Below are positions 3,191 to 17,028 of a DNA stretch of 64,000 bases, piece by piece. Where the stretch lies: contig NZ_JACHIW010000001.1 of the NCBI RefSeq assembly GCF_014203395.1, positions 682,001 through 746,000 of the forward strand. Direction: 5' to 3'. Made by a program: the position numbers and the translations under genes. The stretch is from Saccharopolyspora phatthalungensis (GTDB taxonomy: Bacteria > Actinomycetota > Actinomycetes > Mycobacteriales > Pseudonocardiaceae). The notes under the pieces are model-generated. The model worked only from the letters and a program-made list of their open reading frames with translations. It was not told where the DNA came from and searched no databases. Positions within the stretch are counted from its first letter, which is position 1, and each line of letters opens with the position of its first letter.

Positions 3191-5764
3191 GTGGCCCCGC
3201 CGAACCTCACCCGCGAACAGGCCGAGCAGCGCGCGGCCTTGCTGGAGATCCAGTCCTACGCGATCGAACTGGATCTCGCTGCCGGCGCGGGTGGGCCGGA
3301 CGTGGAGACGTTCGGTTCCACCACCACGGTGCGGTTCCGCAGCAACCAAGCGGGCGCCGACAGCTGGATCGACCTGGTGGCCGAACGGGTGTATGGTGCC
3401 GTGCTCAACGGAGTTGAGCTCGACGTCTCCGACTACGACGAGTCCACCGGCATCCGGCTGCCGAACCTGGCCACCGACAACGAACTAGTGGTGCGCGCCG
3501 ACTGCGCCTACACCAACACCGGTGAGGGCCTGCACCGCTTCATCGACCCGGTCGACGGCGGCGTGTACCTCTACAGCCAGTTCGAAACGGCCGACGCCAA
3601 GCGGATGTTCGCCTGCTTCGACCAGCCCGACCTGAAGGCCACCTACCAGATCACGGTGGACGCGCCGGCCGACTGGAAGGTCATTTCCAACGCCGCCGCC
3701 GAGGTCACCGCCTCGACGAACGGCAACCGGCACGAGTTCGCCACCACCAAACCGATGTCGACCTACCTGGTGGCACTCGTGGCCGGTCCGTACGCGGAGT
3801 GGCGCGATGTCTTTCCCGGCGCGGACGGTCAGGACGAGATCCCGCTGGGCATCTACTGCCGCGCCTCCCTGGCCGAGCACCTCGACGCCGAGCGACTGTT
3901 CACCGAGACCAAGCAGGGTTTCGGCTTCTACCACAAGGCGTTCGGGGTCCCGTACCCGTTCGGCAAGTACGACCAATGCTTCGTGCCGGAGTTCAACGCG
4001 GGCGCGATGGAGAACGCCGGCTGCGTCACGTTCCTGGAGGACTACGTTTTCCGGTCGAAGGTCACCAGCTACCTCTACGAGCGGCGCTCCGAGACTGTGC
4101 TGCACGAGATGGCGCACATGTGGTTCGGCGACCTGGTGACGATGCGCTGGTGGGATGACCTCTGGCTCAACGAGTCGTTCGCCACCTGGGCCAGCGTGCT
4201 CGCGCAGGTCAGCGCCACGCAGTACCACCACGCCTGGACGACGTTCGCGAGCGTGGAGAAGTCGTGGGCCTACCGGCAGGACCAGTTGCCCTCCACCCAC
4301 CCGGTGGCCGCCGACATCCCGGACCTGCAGGCCGTGGAGGTCAACTTCGACGGCATCACCTACGCCAAGGGCGCCTCGGTGCTCAAGCAGCTCGTCGCCT
4401 ACGTGGGCCTGGACAACTTCCTGGCCGGGCTGCGGATCTACTTCAACCGGCACGCCTGGGCCAACGCCACCCTCAACGACCTGCTGCGGGCATTGGAGGA
4501 GGCATCCGGCCGCGACCTGTCGTGGTGGAGCGCCCAGTGGCTGGAGACCACCGGTCTGAACATGCTGCGGCCCCGGTTCGCCACCGACGACAAGGGGCGG
4601 ATCACCTCGTTCGAGGTGGTGCAGAACGGTGCCCGGCCCGGCGCGGGTGAGCTACGCACGCACCGGCTGGCGATCGGCATCTACGACGACGAGGGCGGCA
4701 AACTGGTGCGCAAGCACCGCGTCGAACTCGACGTCAGCGGCGAGCGCACCGAGGTACCCGATCTGGTCGGCGTGCACCGGGGCAAGCTCGTGCTGGTCAA
4801 CGACGACGATCTGACCTACTGCTCGCTGCGCTTCGACCCCGAGTCGCTGACCACGCTGATCGACCGGATCGGCGACATCGAGGAATCGCTGCCGCGCGCA
4901 CTGTGCTGGTCCACGGCCTGGGAAATGACCCGCGAGGCGGAGCTCAAGGCGCGCGATTTCGTGACCCTGGTGCTCGGCGCCTCCGCCGCCGGGGGCATCG
5001 GCGCCGAGAGCGAGATCGGCGTGGTGCAGCGGGTGCTGTTGCAGACACAGACCGCACTTGGGTCCTATGTGGACACTTCATGGCAGGCCGAGGGCTGGCG
5101 GCGGTTCACGGCTCGGCTCTTCGAGCTCGCCCGCACGGCCGCGCCCGGCTCGGACCACCAGCTCGCCTTCGTCAACTCGCTTGCCGGATCGGTGCTTTCC
5201 GATGGGCAGGTCGCCGAGCTGCGCGGCTGGCTGGACGGCTCCGCACCCCTGCCCGGGCTGACCGTCGACACCGACCTGCGTTGGCAGCTGCTTCAGGCGC
5301 TGGTCGCGCACGGCGCGGCCGACGAGTCCGAGATCGACGTCGAGCTGGACAAGGACCAGACTGCGACCGGCCGGCGACGTGCGGAGCGGGCGCGGGCGCT
5401 GATCCCGACCCCGGAGTCCAAGGAGAAGGCCTGGCAGCGGGCGGTGCATGACGACCAGTTGCCGAACGCGGTCAGCGACGCGATCATCGCGGGCTTCCAG
5501 CACCCGGCCCAGCGCGAGCTGCTCGTGCCGTACGTGCGGCGCTACTTCGAGGAGATCGACGAGGTCTGGCAGCGCCGCTCCAGCGAGCGGGCCCAGCCGA
5601 CGGTGATCGGGCTGTTCCCGTCGTGGGCCGTCGCCGACGAGACCGTCGCGGCCGCGGACGCCTGGCTGGACGGCGAACACCCCTCGGCGCTGCGCCGCCT
5701 GGTGTCGGAGGGACGCGCGGGCATCGTGCGCGCCCTCGCGGCTCGCGAGTTCGACCGCTCCTGA
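3191..5764 (+). CDS. pepN: Aminopeptidase N (M1 family zinc metallopeptidase)
   Basis: An 857-residue M1 peptidase that removes N-terminal residues from peptides in the cytoplasm. Visible are the exopeptidase signature GAMEN near residue 270, the zinc site HEMAH near residue 304 with the third ligand in WLNES 18 residues later, and the long C-terminal ERAP1-like helical region that ends with normal family length. GTG at 3191 follows GAGGTGAT and gives MAPPNLT. It is divergent from the CPFAW oxidoreductase across about 280 bases that should hold both promoters, the same pairing as Rv2466c/pepN in M. tuberculosis. Nothing looks damaged. Confidence 0.95.
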
Positions 5765-5920: not shown

Positions 5921-6667
5921 ATGCCCGAGTTGATCTCTGCGTTCGCCCAACTGCTCTGGCCGTTGATCGCGCTGATGGCGATCGTCGTGTTTCGGCGCGC
6001 GATCGGGCGGGTCTTGCGCACCGCCGAGAAGCGTGAGCTGGAGTTCGAGATCGGCGGACAGCGGCTCACCATGCACGAGCTCAACGACCAGCAGAACGAG
6101 ATGATCCAGGACCTCCAGCGGCAGCTGAGCATGCTCAGCAAGCAGTTGGAGGACCGCGATCGGGTCGACGCCGCGTTGGAAGTCCCCAAACCGATCGCCG
6201 TTCCGGCGCTGCCCGAGGTAGCCGACCTCCCCGGCAACGGCGAGGGAGAACACCAGGGCGAGCTACCACCGGTGCAGGCGCCGACAGGCCCCGAGCCGTT
6301 CGCCGTGCTGTGGATCGCCGAGAGACCGGAGGCGCACGCGATACTGGCCGAGCAGCTCCGGGAGAACGGCGTGCGGGTAACGATGGCGACGACCACCGAT
6401 GCAGCGCTCGCTGAACTCTCGCAGCGCCCGTACCGGCTGATCGTGGAGGACATGGGGCGTAAGGAGAACGGCCGGTGGCGGCCCGACGCCGGGCTCGCAC
6501 TGCTGAGCGAACTCCGCGACCTGGGCGTCGACACCCCGGTGATCGTTTACAGCAGCGCACGGGCCCAGCAGCAGTACGGCGAGCACGCGCGGCAGTTGGG
6601 CGCGGTCGGCACGACATCGTCGGCCTACGAGATGTTCCAGAACTTCCAGAGCTTCGACCTGCTCTGA
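5921..6667 (+). CDS. Membrane-anchored coiled-coil protein with a receiver-like C-terminal domain
   Basis: A 248-residue protein of unrecognised family. Residues 5-25 form one hydrophobic segment, followed by basic residues, then a Gln/Glu-rich coiled coil (about 45-85), a Pro/acidic linker (about 85-125) and an alpha/beta domain of about 115 residues. That domain starts FAVLWIAERPEAHAILAEQL and contains LIVEDMGRKENG and TPVIVYSSA, in the positions of the phosphoacceptor loop and the Ser/Thr strand of response-regulator receivers. An Asp is present but the acidic pair at the start of strand 1 is replaced (Ile-Ala-Glu), so phosphorylation is doubtful. No histidine kinase or output gene adjoins it. 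ATG at 5921 follows TAGGAGC. Confidence 0.65.
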   Translation: MPELISAFAQLLWPLIALMAIVVFRRAIGRVLRTAEKRELEFEIGGQRLTMHELNDQQNEMIQDLQRQLSMLSKQLEDRDRVDAALEVPKPIAVPALPEVADLPGNGEGEHQGELPPVQAPTGPEPFAVLWIAERPEAHAILAEQLRENGVRVTMATTTDAALAELSQRPYRLIVEDMGRKENGRWRPDAGLALLSELRDLGVDTPVIVYSSARAQQQYGEHARQLGAVGTTSSAYEMFQNFQSFDLL

Positions 6668-6763: not shown

Positions 6764-7267
6764 TCAGTGGTGGGCGCGGGATTCCGGGTAGCTGGTGCCC
6801 GCCGCGTCGGCGAGCATGCGCAGGGCGCCGATGATGCCGTCGATCAGCTCGCCCTCCTTGAAGGAGGCCACCATGCTCATCGCGGCGAGCTGGCAGCTGC
6901 GGTCCGGGATCCGCCGGTGCGCCTCTTCACCGGTGACGATCTCGAACTTCCGCTGGCCGGGCGAAACGGCGATCAGCACGCCCTCTGGCGCCTTGGGACC
7001 GAGGCCGGCATGCAGATCCTCGGCCTGCTTGCGGGTGTCCTCGCCGAGGTCGCCGAGGTAGATCGCAAACTCCAGCCCGGTGCTGCGGGTGGACAGGGTC
7101 AGTGCCTCGTCCAGTCGCGCGAGCTGGCCGGGGCTGAATGGCAGCCGGGGCCGGTCGGGTTCGACGTGGCGAGCGACGGACAGCCGACCGGTGGCCATCA
7201 TCGCTTCGCCAATGGCGAGCTCGCCCGGGTCCGCGGCGGGCCGCCCCGCGATCTCACCAGTTGCCAC
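6764..7267 (-). CDS. DUF5130 (TPM-like) protein, syntenic with Rv2468c
   Basis: A 167-residue protein with a domain pattern of TPM-like proteins: SPGQLARLDEAL, then LEFAIYLGDLGED, then PEGVLIAVSPGQRKFEIVTG and a C-terminal helical part. This matches the actinobacterial DUF5130 family, which lies beside ctaJ and near pepN in mycobacteria. No clear signal peptide or membrane span is present. GTG at 7267 overlaps the ctaJ stop by 14 bases, so the pair is translationally coupled, suggesting a role connected with the aa3 oxidase complex. The biochemical activity is unknown. Confidence 0.75.
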   Translation of the reverse strand: MATGEIAGRPAADPGELAIGEAMMATGRLSVARHVEPDRPRLPFSPGQLARLDEALTLSTRSTGLEFAIYLGDLGEDTRKQAEDLHAGLGPKAPEGVLIAVSPGQRKFEIVTGEEAHRRIPDRSCQLAAMSMVASFKEGELIDGIIGALRMLADAAGTSYPESRAHH

Positions 7268-7514
7268 GTGCGCCTCCCCGAGCGGTGCTGGGCCGCGCGT
7301 CTTCCGGCGCGCTCTCCGAATCCACGTCTGCCGCTGGTGCGGCGGTGTTCACGCCCGCTGGGTTGGCCACCCAGAACACCGGCGCGAAATCCCAGTCCTG
7401 CCCCGAGCGGTAACGCGGGCGGGTGAGCCTGGGCCACATCGCGATGAGCACGATCAGGCCGTAGATGGCCGCTGGGATCACCGCCAAGGCGAGCACAGTC
7501 TCCAAGACAGTCAC
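7254..7514 (-). CDS. ctaJ: aa3-type cytochrome oxidase accessory subunit CtaJ
   Basis: An 86-residue protein with one N-terminal membrane helix (residues 4-26), followed by PRYRSGQDWDFAPVFWVANP, close to the tyrosine/proline-rich motif of CtaJ, a small accessory subunit seen with the actinobacterial bc1-aa3 supercomplex, and a disordered Ala/Asp tail. GTG at 7514 gives VTVLETVLALAV; the frame runs on to 7679 but the extension is not hydrophobic and looks non-coding. It is the first gene of a two-gene operon with the DUF5130 gene. Start codon is inferred because no strong ribosome site is visible. Confidence 0.75.
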   Translation of the reverse strand: MTVLETVLALAVIPAAIYGLIVLIAMWPRLTRPRYRSGQDWDFAPVFWVANPAGVNTAAPAADVDSESAPEDARPSTARGGARGNW

Positions 7515-7904
7515 GCGAGTACGGTATCGGATGGCCTCCGCTCCGTGCGCCCGACCTGTGCCGCGCAGGATCGACGCCAGCGGCCAGGCGCCGCGACCTC
7601 GCGCCGACACGTTCGAGTTGACCCGACGACCGGGATTCGCCCCAACCAAGGTTTCCGCAGGTGAAAAGCGAATTGACAATTCCGGAAACTACGTACGGTT
7701 ACTAGTCAAGCGTGTTGTACATCACTTAAGGTAACTCTTTCAGAGTAACTACTGCCACCGAATGGAGTCCAACCGGACGGTTGCAATGCGCGGCGACTTG
7801 GCGGCTTGTTCCCGAGGTTTTCGGCTCCTAGTTTTTCACCTGTATGGGTCTTGCATATTTGATCACATGCGTTCAAAGCAAATTTTGAATGCGGGAGGCA
7901 CACT
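7515..7904 (+). promoter_or_regulatory. AT-richer intergenic region upstream of the GVRIS-repeat gene
   Basis: This 390-base region separates ctaJ from the repeat gene and its second half is clearly richer in A/T than its surroundings. It contains a TTGACA at 7673-7678 with possible -10 elements TACGGT (7694) or TACTAG (7700), a partial inverted repeat around GTAACTCTTTCAGAGTAAC (7731-7749), and a perfect CAACCG-GA-CGGTTG at 7770-7783. Just before the gene, GGGAGG ends six bases from the ATG at 7905. Together these make a regulated promoter and a strong ribosome site plausible; none is proven. Confidence 0.45.
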
Positions 7905-8240
7905 ATGTTGATCATCAAAACCGCCACTCAGAGCAACGCCCTCACTCTTCCGATGCCCAACCGGCCACTGCTTGAACACGGTGTTCGGATCAGCGGCCGG
8001 GGCCCCGGCGTGCGCATCAGCGGCGAGCGCGGTGTGCGGATCAGCGGCAAGTGCGGCGTCCGGATCAGCGGCGAGCGCGGTGTGCGGATCTCCAACGGTG
8101 TGCGAATCAGCCGTGGCGTACGGATCAGCGGACAACAGGGCGTACGGATCAGCGGACAGCAAGGCGTGCGGATTTCCAACGGCGTGCGGATCCGCCGTGG
8201 CGTCCGGATCAGCGCGCAGCACGGCGTGCGGATCAGCTAA
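7905..8240 (+). CDS. GVRIS-repeat protein (111 residues, novel)
   Basis: I do not recognise this family. After a 25-residue leader-like start (MLIIKTATQSNALTLP...) the whole protein consists of twelve GVRI units, eleven of them GVRIS, separated by short variable spacers: GRGP, GER, GKC, GER, N, R, GQQ, GQQ, N, RR, AQH. Unit lengths are 9, 8, then twice the series 8-8-6-6, then 8 and 5, so there is a 28-residue higher-order repeat. It is very basic, has one Cys and no signal peptide. The frame is supported by GGGAGG six bases before ATG 7905 and by an AT-rich upstream region. The regular alternation could form a beta-solenoid, a nucleic-acid or membrane binding polycation, or a multi-core RiPP precursor; no modifying enzyme adjoins it. 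Confidence 0.75.
   Translation: MLIIKTATQSNALTLPMPNRPLLEHGVRISGRGPGVRISGERGVRISGKCGVRISGERGVRISNGVRISRGVRISGQQGVRISGQQGVRISNGVRIRRGVRISAQHGVRIS
7980..8237 (+). repeat. In-frame tandem repeat array, units of 18 and 24 bases
   Basis: Each unit starts with a version of GGTGTGCGGATCAGC. Units of 24 and 18 bases alternate in the order 27-24-(24-24-18-18)-(24-24-18-18)-24-15, so the array contains two 84-base superunits. Every length is a multiple of three and the stop codon follows directly. Confidence 0.9.
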
Positions 8241-8307
8241 TCGACTGGGCAGCAGAGGAGCCGTCCGCCGACGCGTCACGCGGTTCTCGTTCGGCACCTA
8301 CGACAAG

Positions 8308-8985
8308 TCAGGCCGCGGGCTCACCGAGGTACGGCAACCACAACGGGTCCGTCTCGGAAAGTCCCGCCAGCAGTCGCCAGTGCCGCCCGCGCGGCGCGTG
8401 CGGCACCACCGGCAGGCGCCAACCCAGCTCGCTCAGCGTCTTGTCCGCCTTGCGGTGGTTGCACTTGGTGCAGCAAGCGACGCAGTTTTCCCAGGTGTGC
8501 GGCCCGCCCCGACTGCGCGGCACGACATGATCTATCGTTTCGGCGCGAGCACCGCAGTACGCGCACCTGTGGTTGTCCCGCAGCATCAGCGCCGCCCTGG
8601 TCAGCGGCACCCGGCCGCGGTAGGGCACTCGCACAAAGTTGCTCAACCGAATCACGGACGGGACTTCAACGCTGTCCGTGGCGGAATGCAGCACCATCCC
8701 GGCCGAATCACCGTGCACCACCTCAGCCTTACCGCAGACGAGCAGCACAATCGCCCGGCGCAGCGGGAGCGCGGTCAGCGGCTCGAACGTCGTGTTGAGC
8801 AGCAGCACCCGCCGCTTGCGCCAGGACGGGGCGTGACCGGGAGGGCGGTCGGCCTGCGGTGGCGACGTTCCGGCGCGGCTCGGCGGGCACAGCGTGGCCC
8901 GCGACGCGAGGCCAGTGGCCTTCAGCGCCGGTTGTCGGGTCGGTTGTCGGTCGGGCACGCGACCACCTCCACCGGTGTCGGGCAT
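8308..8985 (-). CDS. HNH endonuclease family protein, syntenic with Rv2469c
   Basis: A 225-residue protein. A Pro/Arg-rich, poorly conserved N-terminus is followed by VLLLNTTFEPL and, toward the C-terminus, a complete HNH/zinc module: CAYCG, IDHVVPRSRGG, WENCV and CxxCNHRK, giving two CxxC pairs for zinc and the catalytic His in DHV. The family occurs in single copy in the same neighbourhood in mycobacteria; its substrate is not established. ATG at 8985 gives MPDTGG; a longer frame to 9066 is possible and no good ribosome site decides between them. Transcribed toward the GVRIS gene, whose stop is 67 bases away. Confidence 0.8.
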   Translation of the reverse strand: MPDTGGGGRVPDRQPTRQPALKATGLASRATLCPPSRAGTSPPQADRPPGHAPSWRKRRVLLLNTTFEPLTALPLRRAIVLLVCGKAEVVHGDSAGMVLHSATDSVEVPSVIRLSNFVRVPYRGRVPLTRAALMLRDNHRCAYCGARAETIDHVVPRSRGGPHTWENCVACCTKCNHRKADKTLSELGWRLPVVPHAPRGRHWRLLAGLSETDPLWLPYLGEPAA

Positions 8986-9186
8986 AGTCGAACACAGAAC
9001 CCCGCCCGAACGCACGTGTGATTCGACACGCCACGCTGAACTACCGCCGAACGCGGCATCAATCATTCTCGATCATGCGTCCTGGAATCAATAATGATCA
9101 TTCCGGGGCGAATGCGAATCGAAATTCGGGCAGTTGATCACTCATAGAACACCGAACGACTGCGGAACGAACGTATCGTCGCGTGG

Positions 9187-15795: not shown

Positions 15796-17028
15796 ATGTC
15801 CGCCCTCACCGACCCGGCGATCGTCCGGGAACGCCTCGACAGCCTCGACAGCCGGATCCACGAGACCGGCGAGACGAACCTGGTTCACTTGGGCGGGCCC
15901 CTCTCGATCAGCCCGCTCCCGGTCGCCGCGCTGCAGGACCACCTGGGCAACGCGACAACCTGGCTCGGCCGGGTTTGGATCTCGCATACGCGCAACGGCA
16001 CGGCGGTGCGGCGGTGGCTGGTGAGCGAACCGCTCGTATCGCCGGTCCTGGTCCCGGAGCCGCGCGTACTGCCGTTTCGGAAGCAGTTCCGCCTCTCACT
16101 CGCGACGGCCGCGCTCGGTGCCGCGGTGGCGGCGAGCAGCTACACGCTGACGGCGCCTTTTTCAGACCCGTTCCTCGGCCTGATTCCGCCGGACATCTTC
16201 AACCGGATCCCGCCGTTCGCCGAGAACACAGCGCCCCCAGCCGCGGACGGCCAAGCGCCGCTCCTGTTCACACCCAACGGGGCGGCGCTTCCCGAGACGC
16301 CACTCGTTGCGGCTGCTCCGGGCCCGCCGCCCCCGCAGGGTACGGCTCCCCCAGGTGCGCCCGCTCCCCCAGGAGCACCCGGTCCCTCAGGCGCATCCGG
16401 TCCCTCAAGCGCATCCGGTCCCTCAAGCGCATCCGGTCCCTCAGCCGCACCGACACCGCAGTCACCGCTTCCGCCCGGGACATCGCGTCCATCGGCCGGG
16501 CAGCAGGGGGCACCGGAGACGCCGCGAACAGCTGAGCGCAGCGCCACTCCGTACCAGGCGTCGGCACAGGTCCAGACTCCGCAACCGACCGGCGACGCCA
16601 CGCCGCAGCAAGGCGTTACTGGCACCACTCCGGCAGCGCCCGTGGCACCCACGCCACAGCCCACCGCCACTCAGCCGCAAGTGCCCGACGAGCCAACCAC
16701 CACCAATCCTCCGCAGACGACCACGACGGCCCCCTACCCGCCGCACACAACGACTTCAAGGCCCGAGCCGACCACCAAGCCCCCGACGCAACCGGCCACA
16801 ACGGCCACCGAGCGCCCGACGCAACCAACGACAGCGGCCACCGAACCGACGACGACGCCGACGCATCCCACGGGCACGCCGGCCAATCCCACGAACACAC
16901 CGACAAATTCCGCGAACACACCGACAAATTCCACGAGCACACCCACAAATTCGACGAACACACCCACACATCCCACGAACACACCGACCTACACCACGCC
17001 GAGCGACACCAATAACGGAACGTCCTGA
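15796..17028 (+). CDS. Single-pass membrane protein with a long Pro/Thr/Ser-rich repetitive tail
   Basis: 410 residues. An N-terminal soluble region of about 95 residues (with LSISPLPVAALQDHLG) precedes a membrane helix at about 98-115 (LATAALGAAVAASSYTL). The remaining 290 residues are low-complexity: first a Pro/Ala/Gly part with GPSSAS repeats, then a Thr/Pro/Asn part with NTPTNS repeats. Such tails span or associate with the cell wall and are often O-mannosylated in actinomycetes. No sorting signal follows the tail. The orientation, short domain inside and tail outside, is inferred. Starts three bases after the previous gene. No family recognised. Confidence 0.6.
   Translation: MSALTDPAIVRERLDSLDSRIHETGETNLVHLGGPLSISPLPVAALQDHLGNATTWLGRVWISHTRNGTAVRRWLVSEPLVSPVLVPEPRVLPFRKQFRLSLATAALGAAVAASSYTLTAPFSDPFLGLIPPDIFNRIPPFAENTAPPAADGQAPLLFTPNGAALPETPLVAAAPGPPPPQGTAPPGAPAPPGAPGPSGASGPSSASGPSSASGPSAAPTPQSPLPPGTSRPSAGQQGAPETPRTAERSATPYQASAQVQTPQPTGDATPQQGVTGTTPAAPVAPTPQPTATQPQVPDEPTTTNPPQTTTTAPYPPHTTTSRPEPTTKPPTQPATTATERPTQPTTAATEPTTTPTHPTGTPANPTNTPTNSANTPTNSTSTPTNSTNTPTHPTNTPTYTTPSDTNNGTS
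16381..16449 (+). repeat. 18-base tandem repeat, about 3.8 copies
   Basis: Units begin GGTCCCTCAAGCGCATCC and encode GPSSAS; the second and third are identical, the first and last differ by one or two bases. A variable-copy coding minisatellite. Confidence 0.85.
16894..16998 (+). repeat. 21-base tandem repeat, five copies
   Basis: Units begin AACACACCGACAAATTCC and encode NTPTNST-like heptads; copies diverge at several third positions, showing that the array is older than the 18-base one. Confidence 0.85.

Follow-up and report, generated by a model that had tools for sequence, protein, structure and literature searches.

The window, as we call the whole 64,000-nucleotide stretch of Saccharopolyspora phatthalungensis DNA that was analysed, contains a small open reading frame (ORF) filled largely with copies of one five-residue motif, and the gene order around it is pepN, DUF5130, ctaJ, repeat gene and HNH. 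The features are listed below with the evidence for each and, for three of the neighbours, their occurrence among 80 related loci that were compared.

3191..5764, plus strand: M1 aminopeptidase, pepN-like (Pfam; 74 of 80 loci)
6764..7267, minus strand: DUF5130/TPM-domain protein (Pfam; 78 of 80 loci)
7254..7526, minus strand: ctaJ, aa3-type cytochrome oxidase subunit, divergent neighbour (NF050118, 1.8e-24; 78 of 80 loci)
7806..7834, plus strand: proposed promoter TTGTTC-17 nt-TAGTTT (conservation in relatives)
7837..7854, plus strand: conserved element CACCTGTATGGGTCTTGC, close to where transcription is predicted to start (conservation in relatives)
7893..7898, plus strand: Shine-Dalgarno sequence GGGAGG (sequence; similar sites in relatives)
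7905..8240, plus strand: repeat-protein ORF, 111 amino acids, ATG start (ORF listing, same-frame relatives, purifying selection)
7905..7979, plus strand: leader, residues 1-25 (within-genus alignment and majority pattern across genera)
7980..8237, plus strand: array of twelve GVRI[SR] units, residues 26-111 (sequence, repeat finding)
8031..8198, plus strand: two 28-residue superunits (8-8-6-6 twice), residues 43-98 (84-base period)
8308..9066, minus strand: convergent HNH endonuclease gene, anchor of the synteny search (Pfam HNH_5, 1.2e-11)

The GVRI units begin at residues 26, 35, 43, 51, 59, 65, 71, 79, 87, 93, 99 and 107, and this recount confirmed the original prediction of twelve units within residues 26-111 with lengths of 9, 8, (8-8-6-6) twice, 8 and 5. 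GVRIS accounts for eleven of the twelve and GVRIR for the remaining one, and the protein ends in HGVRIS, without LAA. For the ORF, Tandem Repeats Finder gave a period of 84 bases, equal to 28 residues, with 83% matches and a score of 263, and also 24-base periods. The 28-residue superunit described earlier was seen in S. phatthalungensis, while only the five-residue motif and the short spacers are common to the genera. The GGGAGG that had been noted before the ATG lies six bases ahead of the start codon, and the upstream region is AT-richer, as had been claimed (GC content of 0.43-0.57 for the 100-base segments between 7650 and 7949, compared with 0.64-0.74 for most other segments). It contains three short palindromes or inverted repeats (7712-7725, 7857-7868 and 7869-7892). 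Two long frames overlap the gene, one antisense (7863-8297, 144 amino acids) and one on the plus strand (7972-9021, 349 amino acids). Elsewhere in the window, at 16345-16989, further tandem repeats have periods of 18, 21, 33 and 36 bases, all multiples of three.

The neighbours pepN, DUF5130, ctaJ and HNH look like housekeeping genes, and a prolyl oligopeptidase gene follows the HNH gene in 54 of the 80 loci; contig ends truncate some of the loci in these neighbour counts, and in L139, L143 and L154 CtaJ is placed roughly 4 kb further away. We take the Mycobacterium tuberculosis genes Rv2467-Rv2469c to have the same order, without the array. A response-regulator receiver domain protein is encoded at 5921-6667 on the plus strand (Pfam, 9.4e-8) and recurs in 22 of the 80 loci, some of which are perhaps too short to reach it. 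The HNH neighbour also matches the HNH region of the IscB and Cas9d models, below cut-off, and within the order 234 of 249 genomes contain relatives of it.

The earlier remark that no described family of this kind is known was borne out in the libraries searched. In Pfam the window protein had nothing above cut-off and only a sub-threshold match to STT3_PglB_C; in NCBIfam four members of the family had nothing above cut-off, the best match being a collagen-like model with the member at L115 (E 9.4e-5, 21.5 bits where the cut-off is 325); for window positions 7500-8400 Rfam gave no match, and PDB sequences gave nothing better than E 0.07. The literature searched contained no description of the repeat gene, GVRIS and longer motif strings appearing only in papers unrelated by title, and the gene is not shown in those portions of the main text of two S. 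erythraea papers (PMC4008361 and PMC3878487) that were consulted. Judged by these libraries, the family and its pattern are apparently undescribed. A mobile origin was considered and rejected, with no phage record and no relative among viral contigs; a weak match on a Halocatena plasmid lies on the strand opposite to an annotated gene and was taken as chance.

Relatives were sought within the genus and, through the HNH gene, beyond it. All 22 genomes of the genus matched at E<=0.001, including one weak match (G020, E 8.5e-5) with no array at its locus (L232), and 20 genus loci carry relatives with the leader pattern and 8-30 GVR[IVL] units, L016 being cut by the contig end. The HNH endonuclease query returned 446 relatives, of which the 80 closest named loci were kept for the synteny count; they include Saccharopolyspora, Actinokineospora, Actinophytocola, Kibdelosporangium, Saccharothrix, Lentzea, Umezawaea, Kutzneria, Streptoalloteichus, Actinopolyspora and others. 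An array of 2 to 60 copies adjoins the convergent HNH gene in 79 of these 80 loci, the sole exception being L105 (S. rectivirgula), where no array was seen beside the HNH gene. In 76 of them a convergent ORF lies past the 3' end of HNH and contains at least four copies of a single 5-mer (L111 is cut by the contig end), and three further loci (L106, L131 and L151) hold two or three copies. Among twelve further loci of the family (L193-L204, with L200 and L201 being the same records as L156 and L151), ten have five or more copies, L201 has two and L199 none. One record, L115, is titled Rhodococcus rhodnii NRRL B-16535, and in the tree and the alignment its HNH gene and array group with Kibdelosporangium, so the record is probably misnamed.

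Outside these lineages, short genes occur at the same place in five of the eight genomes examined from one other family of the order (f4), with the motifs RGTRVG (seven copies), RGSRIG (five copies, in two genes), RGARIG (six), RGVRVG (three) and one partly masked RGTRIG; at one f4 locus (L235:3283-3860) two short repeat genes stand in tandem, each with five RGSRIG copies and with different leaders. The HNH flanks carried an array in 0 of 18 cases from family f8, 0 of 31 from other families of the order and 0 of 40 across the class (89 in total), with three of these flanks (L223, L307 and L318) extending less than 600 bases past HNH, two-copy forms perhaps having escaped some of the flank scans, and more distant HNH relatives perhaps not being orthologues. 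In one flank from the order (L244), a 151-residue frame some 2 kb away from HNH contains four GVRV-like units; this was taken as chance. A search with a GVRIS query matched 107 of 297; since it used that query and its weak matches are partly non-relatives, the figure gives neither a maximum nor a minimum. The loci around three weak matches (L230, L231 and L232) showed no array of this kind. With a hand-made query across the class, 8 of 296 genomes matched: the match in G081, from the same family, is a true array, that in G608 (L254) consists of twelve GTRV units within a 542-residue frame of unlikely composition, and in the other loci no frame containing at least three of these units was seen. 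Taken together, these comparisons show a protein family of Pseudonocardiaceae and Actinopolysporaceae that occupies a single chromosomal place and has short members in one further family. The search for relatives proposed with the original prediction thus found same-frame homologues in related genomes, with a fixed neighbour and a variable copy number, where a lack of such homologues would have spoken against a gene.

The copies within each gene share one motif, and the set differs among genera (GVRIS, GTRVT, SVRIT, GIRVN, GVRIH, GVRIE and GTRIT), so that the family motif can be summarised as [GS][VTI]R[IV][STHEN]. The 76 loci divide into GVRIS (25), GTRVT (25), SVRIT (20), GVRIH (3), GIRVN (2) and GTRIT (1), and other genomes of the family add GVRIE (L073), GVRVT (L076) and GIRVT (L197). 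Copy number ranges from 5 to 60 in 75 proteins, and the spacing from motif to motif takes few values: 6, 8 or 9 residues in 352 of 386 GVRIS intervals, 6, 9 or 10 in 510 of 587 GTRVT intervals (6 being the commonest, 348 of 587), and 8 or 9 in 263 of 293 SVRIT intervals. The majority leader pattern across genera is M.T.....Q....T, and some genera lack it. In GTRVT arrays (L112, L115, L142 and others) the antisense frame translates into a long VTRVP repeat, from which misannotated genes may arise.

That the repeat is a gene under selection, as had been proposed, was borne out by the substitution pattern. In 18 chosen pairs of related species dN/dS was 0.08-0.53 in frame (0.08-0.12 in six Kibdelosporangium/Actinocrispum pairs), compared with about 0.9 to well above 1 in the two shifted same-strand frames; alignment at the protein level lowers dN somewhat, and the test covered the coding frame and these two. 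Ratios equal in all three frames had been named as grounds for rejecting the gene, and they were low only in the repeat frame. Since leader, frame and motif recur in relatives and dN/dS is low in frame but not in the two shifted frames, the array is more than a chance pattern. It is hardly credible, on this evidence, that the stretch is instead a DNA repeat, a protein-binding or recombination site open by chance: tandem repeats do exist at the DNA level and the antisense and plus-strand frames are open, but the in-frame ratios stand against it, Arg is encoded in the array by both CGN and AGR and Ser by both AGY and TCN, and the upstream promoter-like pair, the Shine-Dalgarno-like site and the leader are conserved. 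Thus, the substitution pattern shows that the repeat gene codes for protein.

Selection also acts on the individual copies. Between copies within 77 genes, the median piS was 0.479, piN 0.018 and piN/piS 0.038 (highest 0.268; 0.195 in the window gene), under a unit rule of at least three of five residues matching that biases piN downward, and the spacers of 56 genes gave a piN/piS of 0.64. As the copies are synonymously divergent while their residues are nearly constant, the motif is under copy-by-copy purifying selection with its number left free, and this divergence suggests that recent gene conversion alone, which would erase synonymous differences too, is not the cause. Mapped on the HNH tree, the motif classes require six changes for seven classes, the least possible, with 64 rows (15 of 79 being left out), and seven changes with all 79 rows, which include L134, taken from the wrong ORF and with a very long branch. 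These comparisons of aligned sequences show that selection keeps the copies alike in sequence, not in number.

The repeat gene has conserved upstream elements of its own. The pattern TTG[TC]NN-17-TA[GAC]N[TA]T was found in 74 of 78 scored upstream regions (two of the 80 were unscored) and sits immediately 5' of CACCTGTAYGGNYCTTGC across relatives, in which start codons were chosen partly by the presence of a Shine-Dalgarno-like site. A strict sigma-70 consensus scan found no promoter upstream of the repeat gene, and the promoter is proposed from the conserved spacing in relatives, not from that scan. Given its position after the -10 box, the 18-nt element should overlap the transcription start, and any transcripts would begin near CACCTGTA. 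A 22-nt pattern containing the element has one match in its own genome at up to three mismatches, and a regulon sharing the element was rejected on this ground.

The proteins differ in charge and in their C-termini. Net charge across 75 proteins runs from -10 to +80, so the polycation suggested earlier is not supported as a general reading. A basic binder of nucleic acid or another polyanion is very improbable: Arg is nearly constant in the motif and the GTRVT and GVRIS classes are basic (net +8 to +80), yet 14 of 20 SVRIT proteins have a net charge of 0 or below, down to -10, and this range disfavours a simple polycation. Some copies lack Arg, as seen in the within-genus and Kibdelosporangium alignments. 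An [LVI]AA C-terminus is present in 21 of the 75 proteins, namely in SVRIT 18 of 20, GTRIT 1 of 1, GVRIH 1 of 3, GVRIS 1 of 25, GTRVT 0 of 24 and GIRVN 0 of 2; among 19 named Saccharopolyspora proteins, 17 stop at the motif and lack LAA. The tmRNA tags of eight family genomes end in FALAA (seven) or YSLAA (one), and in G022, where the tag is ANKSRADFALAA, the genome's own repeat protein ends in GARGDFALAA. This resemblance suggests an ssrA-like degron in the LAA-bearing lineages.

AlphaFold2 modelled the window protein (11 sequences) with a pLDDT of 65.7, a pTM of 0.61 and a strand on each motif; in ten-residue blocks the repeat region reached 63-84, and the leader was below 50 and disordered. 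For a near-perfect GTRVT relative from Kibdelosporangium (6 sequences) the pLDDT was 43.6, with no predicted fold. A Foldseek search of the PDB with the medium-confidence window model gave 41 matches at E<=10 and none at E<=0.001, the best being ice-binding proteins at E 0.7 or worse. AlphaFold2 is reported to predict unrealistic beta-solenoids for repeats (PMC11795689), and the strand-per-motif model is accordingly weak evidence.

The explanation that we put forward, with confidence a little short of even, is that the proteins are made of identical short beta-strands that pair with one another and that are kept scarce by Clp proteolysis in some lineages. Each motif would form a short strand with V, T or I and I or V on one face and Arg on the other, the strands being joined mostly by turns of one, three or four residues. 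Pairing within and between chains would let the array grow into an assembly of cross-beta or solenoid-like type. There a mismatched strand would do harm, while the length of the array would be free; where the C-terminus is of the LAA type, ClpXP would keep the protein scarce through the ssrA-like degron. If identical strands pair with one another, the identity of the motif but not its number would be kept, and the motif would change only as a set. Consistent with self-pairing are the alternating V-R-I or T-R-V pattern of the motif classes, the uniformity within genes despite large synonymous divergence, the set-wise changes along the HNH tree with varying copy number, and the few spacing values together with the predicted strand on each window-protein motif; the tag-like ends support the Clp part. 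Against self-pairing stand the unfolded prediction for the GTRVT relative, the lack of a significant fold match, the reported overprediction of solenoids, the members with two or three motifs, which are not long enough to form a solenoid by themselves, the lowering of piN by the unit rule and the copies that lose Arg. The Clp part is opposed by the LAA-less ends of the window protein and of most named Saccharopolyspora proteins.

A single partner or enzyme that reads the motifs would make their uniformity just as expected. We regard as unlikely a docking array in which each motif would bind one copy of a conserved partner protein, with the motif switching in step with the partner's binding groove. 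Constrained and similar copies, freer spacers, variable number and whole-array switches that track phylogeny would all fit it, as would the missing fold of the GTRVT relative, but no partner gene is found among the housekeeping-like neighbours in the window, and HNH relatives in other families lack the array.

A precursor from which many GVRIS-type peptides are cut after recognition of the leader, similar to a multi-core RiPP or a pheromone, is distinctly unlikely. The short leader with a shared pattern, the repeated core, the absence of a fold match and the Clp-type tail of many relatives favour it. No RiPP maturation gene lies beside the window gene, however, the neighbours being pepN, the response-regulator-like gene, DUF5130, ctaJ, HNH and prolyl oligopeptidase (other loci were scanned for these six only); the spacers lack cleavage-site conservation, Cys and aromatic residues are absent from the motif, and in all 24 GTRVT and 17 of 25 GVRIS proteins the chain stops at most two residues past a motif, leaving no follower.

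The self-pairing that we propose would resemble known beta-repeat assemblies. The left-handed beta-helix of the LpxA type has the hexapeptide consensus [LIV]-[GAED]-X2-[STAV]-X, and the prevalent six-residue spacing of GTRVT arrays, with T and V at alternate positions, is similar; in contrast, the window protein has no Pfam match, GVRIS and SVRIT spacings are 8-9 residues, there are 2-60 copies and no enzyme domain was seen. Functional amyloids such as curli CsgA and FapC likewise consist of near-identical strand-forming repeats tolerant in number, and FapC was among the insignificant Foldseek matches of the window model, but the repeat step here is 6-9 residues and no secretion signal is evident by eye. 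Multi-core RiPP precursors share a short leader followed by repeated cores, and differ in that the window has no adjacent maturation gene, the spacers vary and no typical modified residues occur except Ser and Thr. ClpXP substrates tagged by ssrA end in LAA, as do many relatives, whose tails resemble the eight tmRNA tags; here the tail is gene-encoded, and the window protein lacks it, as do most of the named proteins from the genus.

The family may possibly, though we think this doubtful, represent a new class of bacterial self-pairing repeat protein, in which identity between five-residue strands would be selected and their number would not, each lineage having a private motif that is changeable only as a whole set. 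A conserved place in a family of soil bacteria with antibiotic producers among its members (for example S. spinosa), an upstream element of its own and no described relative in the libraries searched form a rare combination. Strong selection on the sequence of the individual copies, combined with a free copy number and replacement of the motif across whole arrays, raises the questions of how the arrays change together and whether the copies recognise one another, which can be tested directly because natural variants with 2 to 60 copies and eight or more motifs exist in many species.
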